Part shown: piece after piece, positions 6,476 through 26,389 of the stretch
How positions within the stretch are numbered: the first letter of the stretch is position 1
Layout of the letters: each line of letters begins with the position of its first letter
Origin: an uncultured Candidatus Saccharibacteria bacterium
Lineage (GTDB): Bacteria > Patescibacteriota > Saccharimonadia > Saccharimonadales > Saccharimonadaceae
Assembly: GCA_946548715.1 (NCBI GenBank)
Contig: CAMNPZ010000009.1
Span: 1-34,847 of the forward strand
DNA: 34,847 nucleotides
Direction of reading: 5' to 3'
The notes under the pieces: generated by a model
The model's database searches: none
Told to the model about the DNA's origin: nothing
Seen by the model: only the letters and a program-made list of their open reading frames with translations
Position numbers and translations under genes: made by a program

Positions 6476-7009
6476 ATGGATCACGGATATAGAATCGGAG
6501 ATAGCAAAGTCCTAGAGAGCCGCGAGACCGTCGACGGCAAGATGATTCGCCGTCGCCGCGAGTCGCCCGATGGCCGCCGCTTCACCACTTACGAGCGCAT
6601 CGAAATGCCACAACTCACCGTCACCAAGCGTAGCGGCAACAAAGAAATCTACGACCGCGACAAGCTTCTGCTCGCCGTCCGTCGCAGTGTCGGCAAATTC
6701 TTCAACTCCGAACTCGAAATCGAAGACGTCGTCAACCGCGCCACCGATATACTATATTCCTACGGCACCGACCAGATCACCAGTCGCCAAATCGGCGAAG
6801 CCGTCCTCGATGTTCTCGCCGCCGTCAACGAAGTCGCCTATGTCCGCTTCGCCTCTGTCTTCCGTGAATTCAAGACTCTTGAGGATTTCGAGACTATCCT
6901 CAAGGAACAGCGGGATCAACATCGGCGGGTGACGCCGCTGAAGGGGGGCCCCCGCGAGAGCCGAGCGGGGGAAGAAGCGGCGGCAGGACCCGCCGAAGGG
7001 AAACGGTAA
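6476..7009 (+). CDS. nrdR: NrdR-type regulator lacking the zinc-ribbon cysteines, with a palindrome-encoded C-terminal tail
   Basis: NrdR normally represses ribonucleotide reductase genes, using an N-terminal zinc ribbon to bind DNA and an ATP-cone to sense ATP/dATP. The 177-aa product keeps the framework (GDSKVLESR, IRRRRE, RRFTTYERIE) and the ATP-cone (about residues 46-138: LTVTKRSGNKEIYDRDKL...VAYVRFASVFREF). The usual CPxC and CxxC pairs are replaced (MDHGYRIG and ESPDGRRF), and the whole protein contains no cysteine. The last ~28 residues, from about HRRVTPLKGG, are encoded by a 73-nt palindromic repeat (6923-6995) and are not part of the family. AAGGAGG lies 12 bases before the ATG. 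It may still bind DNA through its Arg-rich face or may have lost DNA binding. Confidence 0.85.
   Translation: MDHGYRIGDSKVLESRETVDGKMIRRRRESPDGRRFTTYERIEMPQLTVTKRSGNKEIYDRDKLLLAVRRSVGKFFNSELEIEDVVNRATDILYSYGTDQITSRQIGEAVLDVLAAVNEVAYVRFASVFREFKTLEDFETILKEQRDQHRRVTPLKGGPRESRAGEEAAAGPAEGKR
6923..6995. repeat. In-frame palindromic element, copy in nrdR
   Basis: CGGCGGGT...ACCCGCCG form the outer stem. Inside are GCCGCT/AGCGGC and CCCCCGC/GCGGGGG stems around GAGAGCCGA. The blocks GCGGGTGACGCC and GGCGGCAGGACCCGC are identical to those at 26293-26367 in prmC, while the inner stems differ in sequence but still pair. It encodes the nrdR C-terminal extension; the gene stops 12 bases after the element. 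Confidence 0.8.
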
Positions 7010-12442: not shown

Positions 12443-15400
12443 ATGAAATATAGAGCAGGGAGTCGCCGCAAGGCCATTGAATACGAAAAATCACTCACCG
12501 AATGGTGGAAAAAGAATAAAACCTTCGAAAAATCGGTCGAAAACCGACCAATCGATAAATCCTACGTTTTTTATGATGGCCCTCCTTTCATCACCGGCAA
12601 CCCTCACCACGGTACGCTGCTGAGCTCCATCGTGAAGGACGCCGTTCCGCGTTACTGGACCATGAATGGTTACCGCGTCGAACGCCGCTGGGGCTGGGAC
12701 TGTCACGGCCTTCCCGCTGAGAACTTTGTCGAGAAGCAGCTTGGCATCACTGATCGCCGTGACATCGGCACCAAATGGTCCCTCGAGGACTACATCATCA
12801 AAGCTCGCGAATCCATGGTCGCAAACTCCGAGACCTGGCGCGCCACCATCGACCGCGTCGGCCGCTGGGTTGATTTCGACAACTGCTACCGCACCATGAA
12901 CAAAGACTTCATGGAATCCGTCTGGTGGGCTTTCAAGCAGCTCTACGAAGCCGGCAAAATCTACGAAGGCCGCAAAGTTCTCATGTACGATACGAAATTC
13001 GCCACTCCAGTCAGCAAGGCCGAAGTCACCATGGACAACGACGCCTACCAAACCGTCACCGACCCCTCCGCCTACGTCAAGTTCAAGCTAGTAGATGCGG
13101 ATTCAGAATATATGCTAGCTTGGACCACCACGCCCTGGACCTTGATGGCCAACCGTGCCCTCGCCGTCAGCAAAGACTTAGACTACGGCATATATAATAT
13201 CGACGGCGAGCATCTCATCGTCGCCACCAAGCTCGCCGGTAAACTCTTTGGCAAAGATGCCAAACCAGAAAGAACAATTAAAGGCAGCGATCTCGCCGGT
13301 CTCAAATACGAATCTCTGGACGGTACGATTTGCCAAGTCTTCACCGCCGGCTTCGTTGGTGACGAAGAAGGCACCGGCATCGTTCACATCGCTCCCGCTT
13401 ACGGTGAAGACGATTACGAACTCTACAAACAACACGAAGGTGAAATCGATTTCGTCGACACGCTAGACGAGAACGGCTACTATATTGAAGAATACGCCGA
13501 CAAACTCCACGCTCTCGGCGTCCGTGACACCGACGAACATGGCATCCAGATTTGGGCCGGCAACAAATTCATCGCCAAAGTCCTAGAACAGCAGGGAATC
13601 ATTTATAAGATTGAATACATCCAGCACGAATATCCCTTCAACCCACGGAGTAAAGAACGCATCATGTACCGCGCCTTCCCGAGCTGGTTCTTCGACATCG
13701 AAGGCCAGAAGCCCCTCATGCTCGCAGAGAACGAAAACATCAACTGGTTCCCAGCCTATCTCAAACACGGCCGTTTCGCTAAAAACATCGACGCCGCTCC
13801 CGACTGGAACTTATCTCGTGACCGCTTCTGGGCCACTGCCATGCCAGTCTGGAAAGGCGAAAAAACCGGCGCCATCAAGGTCTTCGGCTCCTACAAAGAG
13901 CTCGAGGAGTACTCCGGCAAAACCCTTGACGATTACCATCGTCCATGGGTCGATGAAATTGAATTCGATGCATATGTGATAGATGGACCGGCGAAGTCGG
14001 AAGATGGTTTTTCGCGACCTTCCGCGACTAACGAGGAGCGGGGGAGCGAAGTGTCCCCCGTAACGACGGGCGGACACGAGCGTGTCGAGAAAAAATCATC
14101 TTCGACTTCGGGCGGCACTCTAGACCATTTCGTTCGTATTGAAAAGGTTCTCGACTGCTGGTTCGAATCCGGCTCCATGCCTTTCGCTCAGCTTCACTAC
14201 CCATTTGAAAACAAAGAGAAATTCGAGCGTAACTACCCAGCTGATTTCATCGTCGAATACGTCGGCCAAGTTCGCGCTTGGTTCTACTATGTCCACGCTG
14301 TGAACACTGCTCTTGCCGAGATTGGCGCCTTTGGCCCCAAAGCCAAGCAAGGCCACAAGAACGCCTACAAGAACGTCATCACTACCGGCACTCTCGCCGG
14401 CAACGACGGTCGCAAGATGAGCAAATCTCTCGGCAACTTCACCGACCCCAATGTCCTGATGGATCAATATTCTGCCGACGCCCTCCGCTTCCTCCTTTTA
14501 TCCAGCCCAGTCCTCTCCGGCGAAGACTTCGCCCTTCTCGACAAAGACGTCTCCGATGTCCACCGCAAGTTATCGATGCTCTGGAATGTCTACGACTTCT
14601 TCACAACCTATGCCGAAGTTGAAAATCTAGATTCAGATGAGCTCGACCAAGTTGCTCGGATTAAGAACCCGCTAGACAGATGGATTATCCTCCGCGTTCA
14701 TCAGCTTCGCGACGAAATCACCGAAGGCATGGAGGAATACAATATCCCGAAGGCCCTTCAGGGCGTGTTACCTTATATTGACGACCTATCGAACTGGTAC
14801 GTCCGCCGTTCTCGCCGCCGCTTCAGCAAAAACCCCGACCGCGAAGACAAGCTTTCCGCCTTCTCTACCCTCTATTCGGTACTTAAGCTCACCGCTATCC
14901 TACTCGCTCCGTTTACTCCATTCCTCTCCGAGGAGCTCTATCAGAAACTCACTGGCAAAGACGAATCCGTCCACCTCTTGGACTGGCCCGGTGAACTCAA
15001 GCCCTCAGCCACAGAAACCGTCCTCACCGAAATGTCTCGCACTCGCCAGATCATCACCGATGCTCTAGCCCTCCGCATGCAGAAATCCGACACCGAGGAC
15101 CAAATCAAAATCCGCCAGCCACTATCGCAGCTTACTTATGACGGCGACCAGCTCGACGAATTCTACGAGCAAATCATCGCCGACGAGGTCAACGTCAAAG
15201 CAGTCAAACACGGCGATAAGCTCTTCCTCGATAAGACTCTCACCCCAGAACTCAGGGAAGAAGGCTACGCCCGCGAAATCATCCGTGCCGTCCAAGCCGC
15301 CCGTAAACACGCCGGTCTCCGCCAGGATGACCAAATTAAGCTATCGCTCTCGTGCGACCTCCCCAAAGCCCACGAAGCTCTCATTAAATCCGAAGTTGGT

Positions 15401-15493
15401 GCCACTGACATCGTCAAAACAGGCAACTACGCCCACGACGAAATCGCCAAAATCTCCGGCGACAACGTCACCATCTCCCTAGAGAAGATTTAA
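12443..15493 (+). CDS. ileS: Isoleucyl-tRNA synthetase, eukaryote-like type, with a palindromic in-frame insertion
   Basis: Charges tRNA-Ile with isoleucine in the cytoplasm. The 1016-aa product carries the class I signatures GNPHHGT (residues 52-58, HIGH) and KMSKS (about 658-662). It also has WGWDCHGLPAE, the CP1 editing domain (TTTPWTLMANRALAV, GIVHIAPAYGEDD), VLDCWFESGSMPF, and a C-terminal anticodon-binding domain. YRTMNKDFMESVWWAFKQL and absence of the C-terminal zinc finger fit the eukaryotic/mupirocin-resistant branch. Residues about 516-558, a Ser/Gly/Glu-rich stretch just before VLDCWFESG, have no counterpart in the family and are encoded by a 126-nt palindrome. The start codon sits about 2 nt after the predicted transcription start. 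C-ending codons dominate. Confidence 0.96.
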   Translation: MKYRAGSRRKAIEYEKSLTEWWKKNKTFEKSVENRPIDKSYVFYDGPPFITGNPHHGTLLSSIVKDAVPRYWTMNGYRVERRWGWDCHGLPAENFVEKQLGITDRRDIGTKWSLEDYIIKARESMVANSETWRATIDRVGRWVDFDNCYRTMNKDFMESVWWAFKQLYEAGKIYEGRKVLMYDTKFATPVSKAEVTMDNDAYQTVTDPSAYVKFKLVDADSEYMLAWTTTPWTLMANRALAVSKDLDYGIYNIDGEHLIVATKLAGKLFGKDAKPERTIKGSDLAGLKYESLDGTICQVFTAGFVGDEEGTGIVHIAPAYGEDDYELYKQHEGEIDFVDTLDENGYYIEEYADKLHALGVRDTDEHGIQIWAGNKFIAKVLEQQGIIYKIEYIQHEYPFNPRSKERIMYRAFPSWFFDIEGQKPLMLAENENINWFPAYLKHGRFAKNIDAAPDWNLSRDRFWATAMPVWKGEKTGAIKVFGSYKELEEYSGKTLDDYHRPWVDEIEFDAYVIDGPAKSEDGFSRPSATNEERGSEVSPVTTGGHERVEKKSSSTSGGTLDHFVRIEKVLDCWFESGSMPFAQLHYPFENKEKFERNYPADFIVEYVGQVRAWFYYVHAVNTALAEIGAFGPKAKQGHKNAYKNVITTGTLAGNDGRKMSKSLGNFTDPNVLMDQYSADALRFLLLSSPVLSGEDFALLDKDVSDVHRKLSMLWNVYDFFTTYAEVENLDSDELDQVARIKNPLDRWIILRVHQLRDEITEGMEEYNIPKALQGVLPYIDDLSNWYVRRSRRRFSKNPDREDKLSAFSTLYSVLKLTAILLAPFTPFLSEELYQKLTGKDESVHLLDWPGELKPSATETVLTEMSRTRQIITDALALRMQKSDTEDQIKIRQPLSQLTYDGDQLDEFYEQIIADEVNVKAVKHGDKLFLDKTLTPELREEGYAREIIRAVQAARKHAGLRQDDQIKLSLSCDLPKAHEALIKSEVGATDIVKTGNYAHDEIAKISGDNVTISLEKI
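13990..14115. repeat. In-frame palindromic element inside ileS
   Basis: The outer arms GCGAAGTCG-GAAGATGG-TTTTT and AAAAA-TCATCTTC-GACTTCGGGC pair with few mismatches. Inside are GGGGG/CCCCC, GTCCCCCGT/ACGGGCGGAC alternatives and GACACGAGCGTGTC. The length, 126 nt, is a multiple of three, and the frame stays open. It encodes a flexible Ser/Gly/Glu linker. Confidence 0.7.
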
Positions 15494-15580
15494 TTAACTC
15501 AATTCAAAAAAACATAAAACAAATCAGGCTTGTTGTAAGTTCTGAATGGCTCAGAGTGTAAGCGTCGAATCCAAGTGCAT

Positions 15581-15792
15581 TATATAAATGGATCTAAAAT
15601 CCAGTTTCTCGCGAGCATATGATGAACCCGGTTATTTTTTACAACTTTTCCTCATCCGAGGCGAGTAAAGTTACAGATTTGCGAAGCAAGTCTGATAACT
15701 TGATCGAGACGAGGATTGAGCGAAATGTTGTGGAAAATAACACGGCGTGAAATCATCGCAAGCGAAAACTGGGTTTTAGACATTTTTATATA
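15581..15792. repeat. Large imperfect palindrome (~212 nt) downstream of ileS
   Basis: The left arm starts TATATAAATGGATCTAAAAT and the right arm is its diverged complement ending GGGTTTTAGACATTTTTATA-TA. The two match for about 100 bases with scattered mismatches, and the centre is AAGTTA-CAGATTTGC-GAA-GCAAGTCTGATAACTT. Bases 15738-15765 (GGCGTGAAATCATCGCAAGC at its core) recur with 25 of 28 identities at 22616-22643, marking this as part of a dispersed family. Confidence 0.75.
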
Positions 15793-15844
15793 ATTGTAAC
15801 AGGGGTATATTTGACAAAACCGCAATATTTTAGCATAAACACTA

Positions 15845-16780: not shown

Positions 16781-18620
16781 ATCACCCGATTCATTACCCG
16801 GAAGTAATCCTGAAACCGGACGGCAAAGAGATGATCATCGTAAAATTGGCGGCAAAGTCATAGCGGCCGCCAAAGCCGAAGGAAAAACACCTGAAGCTCC
16901 AGGCAAAACAGCTAGAGAGATTTTCGACCAAATGACTCCAGGTTCAGATGCAGACGAAGCAATTCGGCGAGCTGAGGAGGCCGAGCAAGCGGCACTCCGA
17001 GGGCAAGCAGCTAGAGCGATTTTCGACCAAATGACTCCAGGCCCAGATGCAGACGAAGCGATTCGGCGAGCTGAGGAGGCCGAACAAGCGGCACTCCGAG
17101 GGCAAAAAGCAACACCGAATGCAGAACGAGGTAAAACTCCCGCCGAAACAACCAAAGAAAAAGCCAAAACCAACTCTGCCTTTAAAACAGCAGTCCGTGG
17201 GTTAATAGCTGGCGGAGTAGCCACACTCGCCGCACTTGGTATATTTGGCGCCTATGAGTCTAATAGGAGATTAAACCCAACGCAACCACAGGCAACTGAG
17301 GCAGAAGCTGTTCCTGGCGGCTCATCGGAGGATGACGCTGGTGCCACCGCGGAAGCAGAAAACCAGTCTAGCTTCGAAAGTCTTAATGCTACGCTTAACC
17401 ATTCATTTGAGCAAGATGACAATTTAGGTTGTTATGAAGATGCTAACAAAGTCGACCCAGCCTCAATCGGTAATCCTAGAGCGATAGCCGAAGAACTAGG
17501 CTTAGATTTCGACAATCTTCCTGCCGACCAACGTGGGAAGATTAGTGAATATATCGCTCGTTCGATGAAATACCCAGCAGCTGCGGAAGCTATTACTCAT
17601 GGCTACCCTGGATTCGAGGGGCTAAGCCAACAAGAAGCCGAAGATAGAATTGCTAGCATGTCTCCTGAAGAAAAAGCTAATTTTGACGCATTCCTCGTGA
17701 ACGAATATGCAAATTCTACATATACCTACATGGATGGTAACGGAACAATGGTAAATCATGGTGTCGTAGGCGAACGGGGTGATAGGCATAGCACATCGCG
17801 AGAAGCAGACATGACTGGAAAGAGAATCCTGGTCCGTGAAACAACCCAGCAAGGCGGAGCCAAAGTTACAGATTATATTAAAGATGATTGTAATAACTGG
17901 TTATACACAATCGTCATACGTCCAGATGGACAAACTACCGTTATTACGCCTCCCCCTGCTCCAACTCCAAGCAATCCTAGTAATCCCGATAATCCAAGCA
18001 ATCCCAGCAATCCCGATAATCCCAGCAATCCCGATAATCCCAGCAATCCCGATAATCCCAGCAATCCCGACAAGCCCGATAAACCAGACCAGCCCGCACA
18101 TCCTCCGAAAAATAAAGAAGCCGAAAGGCGGAATGCTGGCGAGCATGTTACTCCAATATCGGTTGATCCAAACGCTGCCAATTCCGAACAGGCTCACGAA
18201 GCGCAGGAAAAAGCCAATCGTGAATCCGTAGACGCTCAAGCCGAAGCTAAACGACAGGCTGCAGCCGAAGCAGAGCGCCAAGCCGCCGCTCAAGCCGAAG
18301 CGGAGCGTCAAGCTGCCGCCGAAGCTGAACAACGTCGTCAGCAAGCCGAAGCAGAGCGCCAAGCCGCCGCTCAAGCCGAAGCAGAGCGCCAAGCCGAAGC
18401 GGAACGTCAAGCCGAAGCTGCACGACAAGCCGCAGAACAAGCTGCCGCCGAAGCCGCACGTCAAGCCGCCGAAGAAGCTCAGCGTCAAGCCGCCGCCGAC
18501 GAAGCTGCAAGGCGGGCACAAGCCGAAGCCGACGCCGCTGCAGCCGCCGCCGCTGAGACTGCCCCGGCCGGCGCAACCGCCGATGACTTTGCCGCTGCAG
18601 CTGATGAAGAAGGTTTTTAA
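16773..18620 (+). CDS. Membrane protein with tandem repeats and a TolA-like Ala/Gln/Glu coiled coil
   Basis: The 615-aa product is modular. Residues 47-112 hold two near-identical 33-residue repeats (AREIFDQMTPGSDADEAIRR). One membrane helix spans about residues 137-158 (AVRGLIAGGVATLAALGIFG). A globular acidic domain of about 220 residues contains GYPGFEGLSQQEAEDRI and ends near NNWLYTIVIRPDGQTTVI. Next is a Pro/Asn/Ser/Asp linker of repeated NPSNPD units. A long Ala-Glu-Gln-Arg heptad-like region (AEAERQAAAQAEAERQ type, about residues 490-600) resembles the TolA stalk. The repeats at 0-50% divergence show recent expansion. With one helix it would expose a long rod; its side of the membrane is not certain. 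Function unknown, probably structural at the cell surface. Confidence 0.75.
   Translation: MAKSPDSLPGSNPETGRQRDDHRKIGGKVIAAAKAEGKTPEAPGKTAREIFDQMTPGSDADEAIRRAEEAEQAALRGQAARAIFDQMTPGPDADEAIRRAEEAEQAALRGQKATPNAERGKTPAETTKEKAKTNSAFKTAVRGLIAGGVATLAALGIFGAYESNRRLNPTQPQATEAEAVPGGSSEDDAGATAEAENQSSFESLNATLNHSFEQDDNLGCYEDANKVDPASIGNPRAIAEELGLDFDNLPADQRGKISEYIARSMKYPAAAEAITHGYPGFEGLSQQEAEDRIASMSPEEKANFDAFLVNEYANSTYTYMDGNGTMVNHGVVGERGDRHSTSREADMTGKRILVRETTQQGGAKVTDYIKDDCNNWLYTIVIRPDGQTTVITPPPAPTPSNPSNPDNPSNPSNPDNPSNPDNPSNPDNPSNPDKPDKPDQPAHPPKNKEAERRNAGEHVTPISVDPNAANSEQAHEAQEKANRESVDAQAEAKRQAAAEAERQAAAQAEAERQAAAEAEQRRQQAEAERQAAAQAEAERQAEAERQAEAARQAAEQAAAEAARQAAEEAQRQAAADEAARRAQAEADAAAAAAAETAPAGATADDFAAAADEEGF
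16911..17108 (+). repeat. Two tandem 99-bp units
   Basis: Units 16911-17009 and 17010-17108 both begin GCTAGAG and end around GGGCAA. They differ at few positions and each encodes 33 residues, indicating recent in-frame duplication. Confidence 0.85.
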
Positions 18621-18646: not shown

Positions 18647-20089
18647 ATGAATAAGGCAATATCAAATCTAATTGGTGGGATAACTATAGCAAGTAGTTTG
18701 GCTATTGCTGGGACTGCTATTGCATGGGGACCAAGTGACCGTCCTACTTATACCAACGCAAAACCAGCCGATTATGCTACATTTAACTCTATCACCGATA
18801 ATGTCGCAGTCGGAGATGAACGCAATTTCGTACGCGTTAGGGAGCTTGGCACCGAAAACACATATTCGGATGAAGTTAAAGTCGAACCAGGTAAAGAATA
18901 TGAAGTATATCTTTACTACCACAATAACGCTGGTTCCGACACTAATGCATCGGGCGTAGGTTTGGCTTTGCAAACCAAAGCCGCCGCCACCTACCCAGCC
19001 AAAGTCACTAAAGGCACAAATGGTACTCTCACCGGCGAAATTACCTGGAGATATATTACCTCGAAAAACGATAGCACAGTCCATGACGGTAAAGTTTGGG
19101 ACGAAGCCACACTTACCACCGATTATGACGAAGTCGTTCTTCGCTATAAACCTGGTTCTGCTACTATTCATAATGACGGCAAGATTAACGGCTCAATTCT
19201 CTCGACCAATCTATTCGCCGAAGGAGGCACCTATATCGGCTATAACTCATTGAATGGGGTTGTTCCAGGTTGCGCTGAATACTCTGGGCATATTACCTAT
19301 ACGCTTGTAGCTGACAAAATAGACTCCACGTTAAGCAAGATGGTATCACTTGATGGCGAAAATTGGGCCAAAGAAGTAACCGCAAAACCAGGGGATTATG
19401 TTACTTATCGTGTTGCTTTCCAGAACACTGGGAACACCACCATGACAAACGTTATCCTTAAGGATACTCATGATGATGGACTAACCTTACGGTCTGGTAG
19501 CACTAAAGTTTTCGATATTAATAATACAGAAGGTAAGCAAATCGATGATATTCTCGACATCAGTGGCTACAACACTGGTGACGCCATACCTAGTGCACTT
19601 GTCCAGGTTACCTACCAAGCGCAAGTTGGACGTGAACAGTCTCTTTGTAACAAAGCTCTCAACAACACCATTACAGCATCTTATAATTCTACCGAGCAAA
19701 AAACTGATACTGCAAGCGTCTTAGTCGCTTGTGATGAGCCAGAGCCAGAAACCCCAGTAGAAGATTGTAAAAACAACCCCAACCTTCCAGGTTGTCAGGA
19801 TTGCACCACTAATCCAGATCTTCCCGAGTGCCAAGAGAAAAACTGCAAAACCAACCCTGAAATGGAAGGTTGCCAAGAGCTCCCGAACACTGGTCCGCTT
19901 GAAATAGTCCTAGCCATTGTCATTATTGCTGGCATCGGTGGAGTCGGCTATTACTTCTACCGCACCAAGAAGACACTCAACAAGGTTAAGAAAACAGCCG
20001 TCGGCAAAGATGAAACTTTAGAACACTCAGAAGCCAACAAGGAGACAGTAAGAGAAAAAGAAAAGGAAGTGGAAGAAAAATCGGAATAG
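18647..20089 (+). CDS. Surface protein with DUF11-type domain and LPNTG motif
   Basis: Start at the second ATG (18647), which has AAAGGA at a proper distance; the ATG at 18629 directly abuts its G-run. The 480-aa product has a signal peptide (GGITIASSLAIAGTAIAWG) and an N-terminal beta domain. A DUF11-like module follows (DSTLSKMVSLDGENW, PGDYVTYRVAFQNTGNTTMTNV, LKDTHDDGLTLR), then a Cys-rich CxxNPxLPxC repeat segment (NNPNLPGCQDCTTNPDLPEC), then LPNTG and a membrane helix (IVLAIVIIAGIGGVGYYFY). Unusually, about 45 charged residues follow the helix, whereas sortase substrates normally end in a few basic residues; it may be an ordinary type I membrane protein. It is the last gene of the operon. 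Its final codons form the left arm of a terminator-like palindrome (20069-20208). Confidence 0.8.
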   Translation: MNKAISNLIGGITIASSLAIAGTAIAWGPSDRPTYTNAKPADYATFNSITDNVAVGDERNFVRVRELGTENTYSDEVKVEPGKEYEVYLYYHNNAGSDTNASGVGLALQTKAAATYPAKVTKGTNGTLTGEITWRYITSKNDSTVHDGKVWDEATLTTDYDEVVLRYKPGSATIHNDGKINGSILSTNLFAEGGTYIGYNSLNGVVPGCAEYSGHITYTLVADKIDSTLSKMVSLDGENWAKEVTAKPGDYVTYRVAFQNTGNTTMTNVILKDTHDDGLTLRSGSTKVFDINNTEGKQIDDILDISGYNTGDAIPSALVQVTYQAQVGREQSLCNKALNNTITASYNSTEQKTDTASVLVACDEPEPETPVEDCKNNPNLPGCQDCTTNPDLPECQEKNCKTNPEMEGCQELPNTGPLEIVLAIVIIAGIGGVGYYFYRTKKTLNKVKKTAVGKDETLEHSEANKETVREKEKEVEEKSE

Positions 20090-20208
20090 TTTGATTCGGG
20101 GGATTTCGGAGCGCGGCAGCGCGAGAGTTAGCGCCGTCCGCCCGTGGCGACGGGCCGGACGGACGCGACCCCGAAGTAAACTATTCGATTTTTCATCTTC
20201 ACTTTTTT
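20069..20208 (+). terminator. Large branched terminator-like palindrome after the LPNTG gene
   Basis: The outer arm begins inside the gene at 20069 (GTGGAAGAAAAATCGG, AATAGTTT, TTCGGGG) and pairs with CCCCGAA, AAACTATT, CGATTTTTC-TCTTCAC (20168-20202). TTTTTT follows. Two inner hairpins lie at the tip: GCGC-GGCA-GCGC and a long CCGTCCG/CGGACGG stem. It ends the envelope operon just before rplU. Confidence 0.75.
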
Positions 20209-20251: not shown

Positions 20252-20560
20252 ATGAAAAAAGCAGTCATTCTGGTTGGCGGGAAACAATATCTCGTCGCAG
20301 AGAAAGAGACCCTACGGGTGGACCTCCTCCCGGCAGGCACCAAAGAGCTCGAACTTGACGCTTTACTTGTTATCGATGGCGACAAAACCACCGTCGGCAC
20401 ACCTATAGTAAAGGGCGTAAAAGTTTCAGCGAAAGTAGTAACGCCCGAAGTAAAGGGTGATAAAATTCGCGTTATTCGCTACAAAGCCAAGAAGCGCGTC
20501 CACAAAGAAACTGGCCACCGCCAGAAATACACCGAACTCGAAATCACCAAAATCGGTTAA
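20252..20560 (+). CDS. rplU: Ribosomal protein bL21
   Basis: The 102-aa product has the L21 features: N-terminal AVILVGGKQYLVAEKETL, a middle VGTPIVKGVKVSAKVV, and the basic C-terminal RYKAKKRVHKETGHRQKY that binds 23S rRNA. Length is normal. AAAGGA lies correctly before the ATG and an extended -10 promoter is just upstream. The usual partner rpmA (bL27) does not follow; a palindrome of about 205 nt does, then parA. Confidence 0.96.
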   Translation: MKKAVILVGGKQYLVAEKETLRVDLLPAGTKELELDALLVIDGDKTTVGTPIVKGVKVSAKVVTPEVKGDKIRVIRYKAKKRVHKETGHRQKYTELEITKIG

Positions 20561-20562
20561 AA

Positions 20563-20767
20563 AAGAAAATAAACTTGGGTGGTTGCAACCTGTTTTTCTG
20601 GCAGCATAAAATGATTTGAAATTTTAACACGTATATTCCTGCCGGCGCCGAGAAAGTTGCCCTTTAGGGCAATCTTTCCCGGACGCCCAGCGTATGACGT
20701 GCTTAAAATTTCAAGTCCCGCTGCCAGAAAAAATAGGTTCAACCAGGACCCAATTTTATTTTCTTTT
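20563..20767. repeat. Large palindromic element between rplU and parA
   Basis: The arms AAGAAAATAAACTTGGGT...CTGGCAGC and GCTGCCAG...ACCCAATTTTATTTTC-TT pair over about 45 bases starting 3 nt after the rplU stop. Next comes an asymmetric internal loop (ATAAAATGA opposite GTCCC), a second stem (TTGAAATTTTAA), and a core GAAAGTTGCCC/GGGCAATCTTTC. The blocks TGGCAGCATAA and AAGTCC-(2 nt)-CTGCCA recur in the element after parB. Confidence 0.8.
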
Positions 20768-20783
20768 TTGCCAATTTTTGTGT

Positions 20784-20799: not shown

Positions 20800-21567
20800 A
20801 TGAGTGCGAAGGTAATCTGTGTTACGAATCAGAAAGGCGGCGTAGGCAAGACCACTACGGCAGTCAATCTCTGCTATTATCTTGCAAAAGACAAGTTCAA
20901 AACGTTACTAATCGATTTCGATCCTCAAGGCAACGCCACCTCCGGTCTCAATATTGACAAAACTACCTTGAAAGCCACTATGACCGATGTCATCCTGGGC
21001 CAAGCCGAACTATCCCAGGTCATCACTCCTACGAAATATAAGCGTTACGATATCGCTCCCACCACTCCTGAACTCGCCAATGCCGAAGTTGAAATCACCT
21101 CTGAGCAGAAACGGTTCACGCGTCTTCGGGATGCCGTGCGCACCGTGGCAAACAACTATGACTATATCATCATTGATTTACCGCCATCTCTCAGTCTTCT
21201 CACCGTTAACGGCATGATTGCTAGCAATTATGTTCTTCTCCCAGTCCAAACCGAATTCTACGCCCTAGAAGGCGTCGCACAACTCCTCGAATCCATGAAG
21301 CTTGTCATGAAGCAGGCCAATCCCGGCCTCAGATTACTCGGCGTTCTTGCTACCATGTATGACAAGCGCACCAGCCTATCCGTTCAGGTTTATAACGAAA
21401 TCAAGAAATACTTCAAGCAACTTGCATTTGAAACCACTATTCCGCGCAATGTTCGCGTCGCCGAAGCTCCGTCTCACGGCGTCCCTGTCGGTGCATACGA
21501 TAAATTTAGTAAAGGTGCCAAGGCTTACAAAGCCTTCACCAAAGAATTAGAGGAGAGAACCAAATGA
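20800..21567 (+). CDS. parA: Chromosome-partitioning ATPase ParA (Soj)
   Basis: Deviant Walker A ATPase that moves ParB-bound origin regions over the nucleoid. The 255-aa product has KGGVGKTT at residues 12-19, LIDFDPQGNATSG (Walker A' region), DYIIIDLPPSLSLLT (Walker B) and a C-terminal APSHGVPVGAYDKFSKGAKAY typical of Soj. Length is normal for the small chromosomal type. The ATG follows the -10 by ten bases with no ribosome binding site. It overlaps parB by 4 bases (ATGA), giving a coupled parAB operon. Confidence 0.96.
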   Translation: MSAKVICVTNQKGGVGKTTTAVNLCYYLAKDKFKTLLIDFDPQGNATSGLNIDKTTLKATMTDVILGQAELSQVITPTKYKRYDIAPTTPELANAEVEITSEQKRFTRLRDAVRTVANNYDYIIIDLPPSLSLLTVNGMIASNYVLLPVQTEFYALEGVAQLLESMKLVMKQANPGLRLLGVLATMYDKRTSLSVQVYNEIKKYFKQLAFETTIPRNVRVAEAPSHGVPVGAYDKFSKGAKAYKAFTKELEERTK

Positions 21568-22415
21568 GTAAAGGCCTAGGTCGCGGTTTTGAAAGCCTCA
21601 TTCCTACCGACCTCGTCGATGAGGAATTTGACTTAACCGCCAGCGAAGACAAGAGTTCTAGCGAACTCAAACAAATCAAACTTACCGACATCATCCGTGA
21701 CGAAGAACAGCCGCGCCGTGATTTTAGCGAAGAAGCCATCGAAGCTCTCGCTGCTTCCATTAAAGAGCACGGCGTCTTGCAACCCATCGTTGTCACCAAA
21801 GAAGACGGCAAATACAAAATCGTCGCCGGCGAGCGCCGTTGGCGCGCCAGCAAAATTGCCGGCCTCGACAAAATCCCCGCCATCGTCCGCACCCTCGATT
21901 CGCAGAATCGCCTCGAACTCTCCATCATCGAGAATGCCCAAAGGGAAGACCTCAACGCCATCGAGCTCGCCACTGCCTACGCTAAGCTCAAGAACCAATT
22001 CAATCTCACTGCTGAAGAAATCGGCGTCAAAGTCGGCAAATCCGAACAAAGCGTCAACAACACCATGCGTCTCCTCACCCTCCCCGAAAAGGTCAAAAAA
22101 ACCATGGTCAAAGAACATCTCACCGAAGGCGTCATGCGGCCATTAGTCTCGCGTGACGAGAAGACAATTAATAAAGTTCTCCCCAAAATCATCGAAGAAG
22201 GTTGGACTGCCCGCAAGGTGGAACGCTATTTTGCCATGAACAAACCCAAATCCAGTACCGCCGCCGTCAAGTCCATCATGCAGAAAAAAGACGAAGATGC
22301 TCTCTCAGCCAAATACGACGCCACTGCCCGTATCAACGCCCAATCCCTCACCTTCCGTTGCAAATCCGAAACCGCTTTGAAAGAACTCGTCAATCGCCTA
22401 AAACGAATAGCCTAG
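21564..22415 (+). CDS. parB: Chromosome-partitioning protein ParB (Spo0J), CTPase/parS binder
   Basis: The 283-aa product begins MSKGLGRGFESLIPTD, the ParA-interacting N-terminal motif. It has the ParB/Srx CTP-binding domain (IVTKEDGKYKIVAGERRWRASKIAG with GERRWRA, and IIENAQREDLNAIE), a helix-turn-helix for parS (LTAEEIGVKVGKSEQSVNNTMRLLTLP), and a C-terminal dimerisation region. AGAGAGAACC lies upstream within parA and the ATGA overlap couples the two. The last codons (KRIA and stop) form the outer part of a 38-bp perfect inverted repeat (22398-22608). No parS consensus was noticed in the window. Confidence 0.96.
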   Translation: MSKGLGRGFESLIPTDLVDEEFDLTASEDKSSSELKQIKLTDIIRDEEQPRRDFSEEAIEALAASIKEHGVLQPIVVTKEDGKYKIVAGERRWRASKIAGLDKIPAIVRTLDSQNRLELSIIENAQREDLNAIELATAYAKLKNQFNLTAEEIGVKVGKSEQSVNNTMRLLTLPEKVKKTMVKEHLTEGVMRPLVSRDEKTINKVLPKIIEEGWTARKVERYFAMNKPKSSTAAVKSIMQKKDEDALSAKYDATARINAQSLTFRCKSETALKELVNRLKRIA

Positions 22416-22608
22416 CGAGAGTATTATTTGGCAGCATAATGAGATTTAGACCAGATTTCTAAATTGTAAGTTTTGCAACTCAGCAATGAAAAAATCTCCC
22501 CCAGCCCGAAGGGCGAATAAGGAGATTTTTTCTTGCCCTGTGTTGCAAGTCTTACAATTTAGAAGTCCAAGCTGCCAAATAATACTCTCGCTAGGCTATT
22601 CGTTTTAG
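22398..22608. repeat. Large palindromic element overlapping the parB 3' end
   Basis: The arms 22398-22435 and 22571-22608 are perfect 38-bp complements (CTAAAACGAATAGCCTAG...TTTGGCAGC) and include the parB stop. Inside is an asymmetric loop (ATAATGAGATTTAGACC opposite AAGTCCAA), then TTCTAAATTGTAAG/CTTACAATTTAGAA, TTTTGCAAC/GTTGCAAG, and AAAAAATCTCC/GGAGATTTTTT. It shares TGGCAGCATAA and AAGTCC...CTGCCA with the element after rplU. It lies between convergent parB and lepB and could terminate both. Confidence 0.85.
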
Positions 22609-25669: not shown

Positions 25670-26389
25670 CTAGTTTGCGAAATAAAGCGCAAACCCTCTA
25701 GTTTTATATAAAGCGAAGTTCCTTTTCTTGGCGTATTCCGCGATTTGTTCGTGTTGGCACGGGTCCGCTTCTAGTATGAGATGCCGAATGCTTCGTTCTG
25801 CCACCTGGTCAATCAGCCGCTTGATTAACGCCAAGCCCCCATCTTCAGCATACAACGCCAAACGCGGTTCTTTCGCTAAGGCCTCCTTGTCGAGCCACTC
25901 CCAGTTTTCATCCACATAGGGCAAATTCGCCACCACGATATCTGGCTGTGCATTTATTCCATCCATCAAATCCGCCCGTACGAACTCTACATCAGCACTC
26001 AGCCTCTTGGCATTCTCACATGCTACCGCCAGCGCTTCTTCGGAAACGTCACTCGCGATTACTCTCGCCTCTGGCAGTTCTAATTTCAAAGTCACCGCGA
26101 TACACCCCGACCCTGTCCCTACATCCAGAATCGTCAAATCCTGCGGCAACACTGCCGCGCTCGGCTTCACCCCCGGCAAATACGGTTTACCCACCAAGTT
26201 CAGCATCATATCAATCATCTGCTCCGTCTCCGGGCGGGGGATTAGTACATCAGGATTAACAACAAACTCTCTACCATAAAAGTCAATAAACCGGGCGGGT
26301 GACGCCATTTTGGGGACCCCATTCGAGCTTGACGAGAATGGGGAAAAAGTGGCGGCAGGACCCGCCCCATCATTATAGACTTCTTTCAT
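25670..26389 (-). CDS. prmC: Release-factor glutamine methyltransferase PrmC, lacking the N-terminal domain
   Basis: PrmC methylates the Gln of the GGQ motif of release factors; its substrate prfA lies immediately upstream. The 239-aa product has [20 protein letters not shown], the SAM-binding [27 protein letters not shown], and [11 protein letters not shown] where most PrmC have NPPY. The helical N-terminal domain of about 70 residues that contacts the release factor is missing. In its place are ~35 residues ([15 protein letters not shown] onward) encoded by a palindromic element (26293-26367). The ATG at 26389 overlaps the prfA end by 17 bases; a later Met (PKMASPARF) could be the functional start. 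It is probably active as a catalytic core, but recognition may be altered. Confidence 0.88.
26293..26367. repeat. In-frame palindromic element, copy in prmC
   Basis: GGGCGGGT and ACCCGCCC are the outer stem. GCCATTTT faces AAAAAGTGGC, and CCCCATTC faces GAATGGGG around GAGCTTGACGA. GCGGGTGACGCC and GGCGGCAGGACCCGC are identical to the nrdR copy (6923-6995). It is translated from the opposite strand relative to that copy. Confidence 0.8.

Follow-up and report, generated by a model that had tools for sequence, protein, structure and literature searches.

We analyzed a stretch of 34,847 nucleotides (the window) from a Saccharibacteria genome and considered the palindrome within its gene for isoleucyl-tRNA synthetase (ileS). 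Judging from the sequence, this insert is one copy of a mobile family, which we call F1. We estimate a probability of roughly two in three that F1 is a small non-autonomous element of ruminant-gut Saccharibacteria whose insertion copies one flank of the target in inverted orientation, likely by fold-back synthesis or template switching.

A palindromic insert in isoleucyl-tRNA synthetase

The ileS gene (12443 to 15493, forward strand) was identified from its open reading frame and a match to NCBIfam TIGR00392, and encodes an isoleucyl-tRNA synthetase (IleRS) of 1016 amino acids. The insert lies at 13990 to 14115 (forward strand), as judged by its fold and its absence from relatives. It comprises a left arm (13990 to 14010), a core, and a right arm (14092 to 14115), all on the forward strand; the arms (GAAGTCGGAAGATGGTTTTTCG and CGAGAAAAAATCATCTTCGACTTC) are specific to this locus and pair with each other. 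The conserved and putatively mobile core is at 14019 to 14083 (forward strand), based on pairwise comparison of cores and on a match to our covariance model R1 (14011 to 14091, 89 bits).

The predicted fold of 13980 to 14125 has a free energy of -73.8 kcal/mol, as compared to -48.0 ± 3.8 kcal/mol for dinucleotide shuffles (z = -6.8), and none of 200 dinucleotide shuffles was as stable. When segments of 126 nt were folded every 63 nt across the 34.8 kb (mean -25.1 kcal/mol, standard deviation 8.5), the insert, at -65.4 kcal/mol, was the lowest of those sampled. The insert contains no stop codons, and the reading frame is open across the whole stretch. The original prediction, of an in-frame 126-nt palindrome within ileS, is borne out by this fold and this open frame.

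Among 110 relatives of IleRS, 96 have a short form of 27 residues (EFDIDGEHFTRIEKVLDCWF) at the position where the protein from the window has 75 residues. Because the short form is so widespread, the insert appears to be recent and not an old protein domain, which agrees with its description as a palindromic protein insert. Conservation of its sequence across distant IleRS would have refuted that description, and was clearly not seen when the IleRS of relatives were aligned. The relatives from named genomes are all from Candidatus Saccharibacteria, except for one that is labelled only as "bacterium," and most are from the guts of ruminants (e.g., sheep, goat, roe deer, yak, and buffalo).

Modeling the insert on a structure had been suggested as a check. 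Residues 519 to 564 of the query IleRS have no counterpart in solved IleRS structures. An AlphaFold model of IleRS (built from 34 sequences) was poor, with a mean pLDDT of 62, and residues 510 to 560 scored about 21 to 30 and had no secondary structure. Much of the catalytic region was also poorly modeled, so the model does not settle whether the insert forms a surface loop. The insert's peptide (SEDGFSRPSATNEER) is a prediction; that it is translated is inferred and has not been proven.

In another genome (L051), we observed the same insert in ileS with exactly 75 nt missing, which is an in-frame partial loss. A different ileS (L039) has a long extra stretch at this site, which we call the 510 site; its sequence resembles a low-molecular-weight phosphatase (FVCNTNIGRSQMAKAIYNKL), and this could reflect the insertion of a domain or a join made during assembly.

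The F1 family

A search with the DNA of the insert found about 25 matching places in the source genome. Model R1, which was built from 16 F1 cores, has about 44 matches (E values of up to 0.1) in this 0.78-Mb genome. The repeated unit is the core only, at about 63 to 67 nt, and it folds into a closing stem with two hairpins. In 6 of the 19 pairs, both sides have changes that preserve the pairing.

R1 has matches in 34 of 36 genomes from the genus; 24 genomes from other families have none. Across 392 sampled genomes of the order, 88 had a match, every one of them in the same family: 77 belong to the source genus, and the other 11, with weaker matches, to three sister genera. No Rfam family matched F1 with an E value of up to 0.1. 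The window contains another, divergent F1-like copy between genes, at 20077 to 20193 (forward strand; inverted repeat I7), which has complementary arms of its own; R1 matches it at 20095 to 20176 with 35 bits.

Some copies are composite. In valS (L005), recX (L007), and the gene for a P-type ATPase (L011), a further palindrome (CGCTGTAGGAGCCGAGC...), the same in all three, interrupts the second hairpin of the F1 core at a shared position. Since the interruption is the same, the composite may have moved as a unit.

The arms are specific to each site

The stems around the F1 core are 20 to 35 nt long, are different at every site, and pair within each copy. For 139 distinct copies, the pairing score of a copy's own left and right arms averaged 27.0, versus 11.2 for arms from other copies, and was above the 99th percentile in 120 cases. 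The outer part of the arms alone (14 to 50 nt) gave a weak signal, with 14 of 139 copies above the 99th percentile, because arm lengths vary.

We also observed identical cores with unrelated arms. Within the source genome, the cores in obgE, argS, polA, and an aminotransferase gene are identical at 63 of 63 nt, and the core from ileS in the window is identical (65 of 65 nt) to the core at a different site, the 735 site of ileS, in another species (L054). Over 65 pairs of copies from different sites, the similarity of left arms to each other was 11.9, as compared to a background of 11.3 and to 26.0 for the pairing of arms within a copy.

Arms are matched within a copy even if the site is held constant. 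Within one site, we compared the pairing of each arm with its own partner to its pairing with the partner from another species. The scores were 26.8 versus 12.7 for obgE (n = 15), 25.6 versus 12.6 for the 735 site of ileS (n = 14), and 24.7 versus 12.5 for rlmD (n = 20), each with p of about 5e-5, and 26.9 versus 14.1 for the 222 site of ileS (n = 7, p = 1.5e-4). To form these groups, we used a short right-flank motif; a few of the copies may instead belong to a neighboring site.

Such matching might arise slowly after insertion, if template switching at quasi-palindromes lengthened a short starting repeat and corrected it. Both bacteria and yeast provide documented examples of this process (PMC8604942, PMC8794818), which would fit with the covariation of arms between species at one site, which is seen in both directions. 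However, full-length arms are already present in the youngest copies, those with cores that share at least 98% identity with a copy at another place (median score of 28, versus 27 for old copies), and we consider it less likely than not that the arms arose this way. Because identical cores carry unrelated arms and the youngest copies are already fully armed, we infer from these comparisons that the core is the moving unit, that the arms arise during insertion or shortly afterward, and that they later stay matched. Because old copies have arms that are just as good, homogenization or selection also acts later, and how much this later process contributes cannot be separated from the initial copying. 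Mismatches within the arms are slightly more often G·U than A·C (105 to 74), which may hint at some selection on the arms at the RNA level.

Alternatively, F1 could be an ordinary palindromic element of the Rickettsia type (RPE) or a miniature inverted-repeat element (MITE), with its own terminal inverted repeats and with arms that have merely diverged. The size, the palindromy, the in-frame position in conserved genes, and the presence between genes would all fit, and there is a weak consensus (TTTCGAG...) adjoining the F1 core. But arms that flank identical cores of 63 to 65 nt are no more similar than background, and an arm in obgE copies the host's own codons (see below). These results strongly disfavor diverged terminal repeats, and we regard this explanation as improbable.

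Evidence that one flank is copied in inverted orientation

Evidence for the origin of an arm is from obgE. Here, the right arm of the insert codes for a conserved segment, LIADL. Among the 23 filled genes, about 13 have a left arm, immediately after VVYK, that reverse-complements this segment, and we observed that this copy matches each genome's own synonymous codons for LIADL. The other filled genes do not show this copy. Left arms scored 18.1 against the reverse complement of their own LIADL segment and 11.4 ± 0.7 when swapped (0 of 5000 shuffles). The obgE genes without an insert scored 7.7 and have no inverted copy of the LIADL codons.

If the element instead targeted the tips of preexisting inverted repeats, then empty sites should contain such repeats. 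Some do hold short natural inverted repeats (GATTC..GAATA at the 222 site of ileS, and another in rlmD), but obgE without an insert lacks one (mean score of 7.7 versus 18.1), which leaves this idea with only a small chance of being correct.

At other sites, the direction of copying is less certain. In rlmD of the source genome, the right arm also looks native. At the 735 site of ileS, by eye, the left arm seems to be copied from the right in two copies (L079 and L057), and the right arm from the left in three others (L069, L071, and L078). At the 510 site of ileS, the loop varies, so this site does not reveal the native arm. We also considered polA, but its linker is variable, so it could not be used. 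No pair of closely related strains with and without one given insert was found; the empty sites are from other species of the genus. Since empty and filled sites are from different species, the age and the direction of each insertion are inferred. There was also no clean pair of empty and filled sites for identifying a direct target-site duplication; what obgE shows is an inverted copy of the flank.

F1 is inserted in frame within conserved genes

Of the 30 best F1 copies in the source genome, we observed that 23 are in frame within long open reading frames; the other 7 are intergenic. The host genes, as named by NCBIfam, include ileS, valS, tsaE-tsaB, recX, ruvX-mltG, topA, the gene for a P-type ATPase, typA, femX, gyrA, rlmD, obgE, argS, polA, and an aminotransferase gene. 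Copies of the core are read in each of the three sense phases and also antisense, so they encode unrelated peptides (RPSATNEERGSEVSPVTT, VRDNGSEIASEPRNDGRE, and SRPSLRGSSLTRSPLVA). Among 131 copies with enough flanking sequence, a sample that is skewed toward ileS, obgE, and rlmD, 109 have a reading frame that is open for at least 40 codons on either side, and all sense phases are represented. It is hardly credible that the inserts are skipped by translational bypassing, as for mitochondrial byps, or spliced out, with the peptide never made: the hairpins are very stable, but skipping would lift the constraint on frame, yet these 109 copies are in frame without stops, and the length missing in L051 is divisible by three.

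We also considered whether the core has been selected for open frames, which is not supported: 3.91 of 6 were open, as compared to 3.79 ± 0.08 in shuffles. Given its composition, the core does not have unusually few stops, so the in-frame placement reflects the purging of bad insertions.

Other palindromes and repeats

The original prediction grouped nrdR and prmC with ileS as core genes with palindromic inserts. These inserts are present (GGCGGGTGACGCC...GGCGGCAGGACCCGCC), at the C-terminal end of NrdR (6922 to 6996) and near the N terminus of PrmC (26298 to 26367), but they belong to a second family, F2, and not to the family of the ileS insert. F2 has six matches in the source genome, some of them weak. 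The 510 site of ileS contains F1 in the window, L051, and L062, and contains F2 in L022/L078, L047/L059, and L066; the inner stems of the F2 relatives in L022, L047, and L066 covary. Several families fill the same hot spots in many species, namely, ileS at about residue 222, ileS at about residue 735, obgE, and rlmD. One obgE (L171) resembles an F1 copy reduced by deletion, and two sequences at the 222 site of ileS (L060 and L053) look like footprints of lost copies.

The window also contains a nested palindrome at 22398 to 22608, which starts at the very end of the open reading frame at 21564 to 22415. Its outer arms are perfectly matched (38 of 38 nt), its inner arms are 30 nt, and its predicted free energy is -130 kcal/mol (z = -18.8); perhaps it is another family, nested. 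Two more intergenic palindromes, at 15579 to 15794 and 20548 to 20780, have long matched arms around a core. In the source genome, obgE (L161) and topA (L009) share a repeated peptide insert (LGARPAGPS...RAAGATPR..LRTPFD), which suggests one more coding repeat family. Finally, the protein at 17946 to 18600 has 9-nt tandem repeats (NPSNPD) followed by repeats that are rich in Ala, Glu, and Arg and resemble coiled coils.

A proposed mechanism

The inverted copy of a flank beside the core argues for insertion with an inverted copy of the target, with fold-back synthesis or template switching as the most likely means. We propose that the structured core of about 63 to 67 nt moves and that, on insertion, one flank of the target would be copied as its reverse complement to the opposite side; the copying could start from either side. 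The core would thereby sit at the tip of a stem that is built from host sequence. The likely route, at replication or repair, would be either self-primed (fold-back) synthesis or a switch of template by the polymerase on the hairpin. In fold-back synthesis, the 3' end of the inserted strand would fold on the core hairpin and copy its own flank. The same process, or selection, might later maintain the match between the arms. This polymerase mechanism is inferred, and it has precedents: template switching makes reverse-complement copies and homogenizes arms, including in coding genes (PMC8794818, PMC8604942). Within genes, only copies that are in frame and free of stops would survive, and these would be translated as surface linkers and decay through in-frame deletion. 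Their near-neutrality is also an inference.

Our search for enzymes, which covered only Y1_Tnp and RVT_1, did not identify a mobilizing enzyme. Y1_Tnp domains were absent from the source genome and from 23 other genomes of the genus, while control genomes were positive. Reverse transcriptase (RVT_1) is present in some members of the genus and was not found in the source genome, so it is not needed for recent copies unless it was lost or missed (the genome is 95.6% complete).

More tentatively, F1 might represent a class of mobile elements with inverted, rather than direct, target duplication, in which a core without arms is pasted by fold-back copying and each copy builds its stem from the host gene; we lean slightly against assuming this. 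As far as we know, the spread of palindromic elements through the genes of reduced genomes has remained unexplained since 2000, when RPEs were reportedly described by Ogata et al. In scores of genomes of this genus, the same sites are empty, carry partial deletions, or contain different cores. Because each copy records its making, as inverted host codons, the mechanism of insertion can be tested from sequence alone. In a single bacterium, selfish DNA has repeatedly lengthened aminoacyl-tRNA synthetases, gyrase, DNA polymerase I, and GTPases; read in whichever frame is open, it would supply essential proteins of Patescibacteria with new linkers.

Comparison with known systems

Among the papers that we searched, none was relevant to palindromic elements in Saccharibacteria or Patescibacteria. 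REP sequences, which are associated with RAYT (Y1) transposases, are small structured hairpin units that are present in many copies and are mainly extragenic. F1 is likewise a small structured hairpin with many copies, but neither the source genome nor 23 others of the genus contain Y1_Tnp. Unlike MITEs, F1 lacks conserved terminal inverted repeats across copies, and unlike the byp bypass elements, it is constrained in frame, with copies that are in frame without stops.

Mitochondrial genes of nematomorphs contain long coding inverted repeats whose arms are matched even though both of them code (PMC6649704). F1 shares these matched coding arms; however, the nematomorph palindromes are native protein sequence without a mobile core, whereas F1 has a repeated core at the tip. 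Template switches at quasi-palindromes (PMC8794818, PMC8604942) resemble F1 in forming reverse-complement copies and in homogenizing arms in coding DNA. They do not involve a mobile element, whereas in F1 the switching appears to be coupled to the insertion of a repeated core.

Among known kinds of element, RPEs come closest to F1. They are palindromes of 100 to 150 bp, in several families, and are found both between genes and in frame within conserved genes of a reduced, host-dependent bacterium (PMC2229807, PMC10969869). They are described as having their own terminal inverted repeats (12 bp in the table of PMC2229807) and as encoding a conserved peptide. F1 is similar in being about 100 to 150 bp, palindromic, repeated across the genome, and located in frame within conserved genes as well as between genes. 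It differs in that its arms are from the target and are not shared between copies (11.9 versus a background of 11.3), in that its core is read in all sense phases and antisense, and in the phylum of its host. Overall, without a comparison to RPE sequences, we file F1 as an RPE-like variant and not as a member, because its terminal repeats are not shared between copies.
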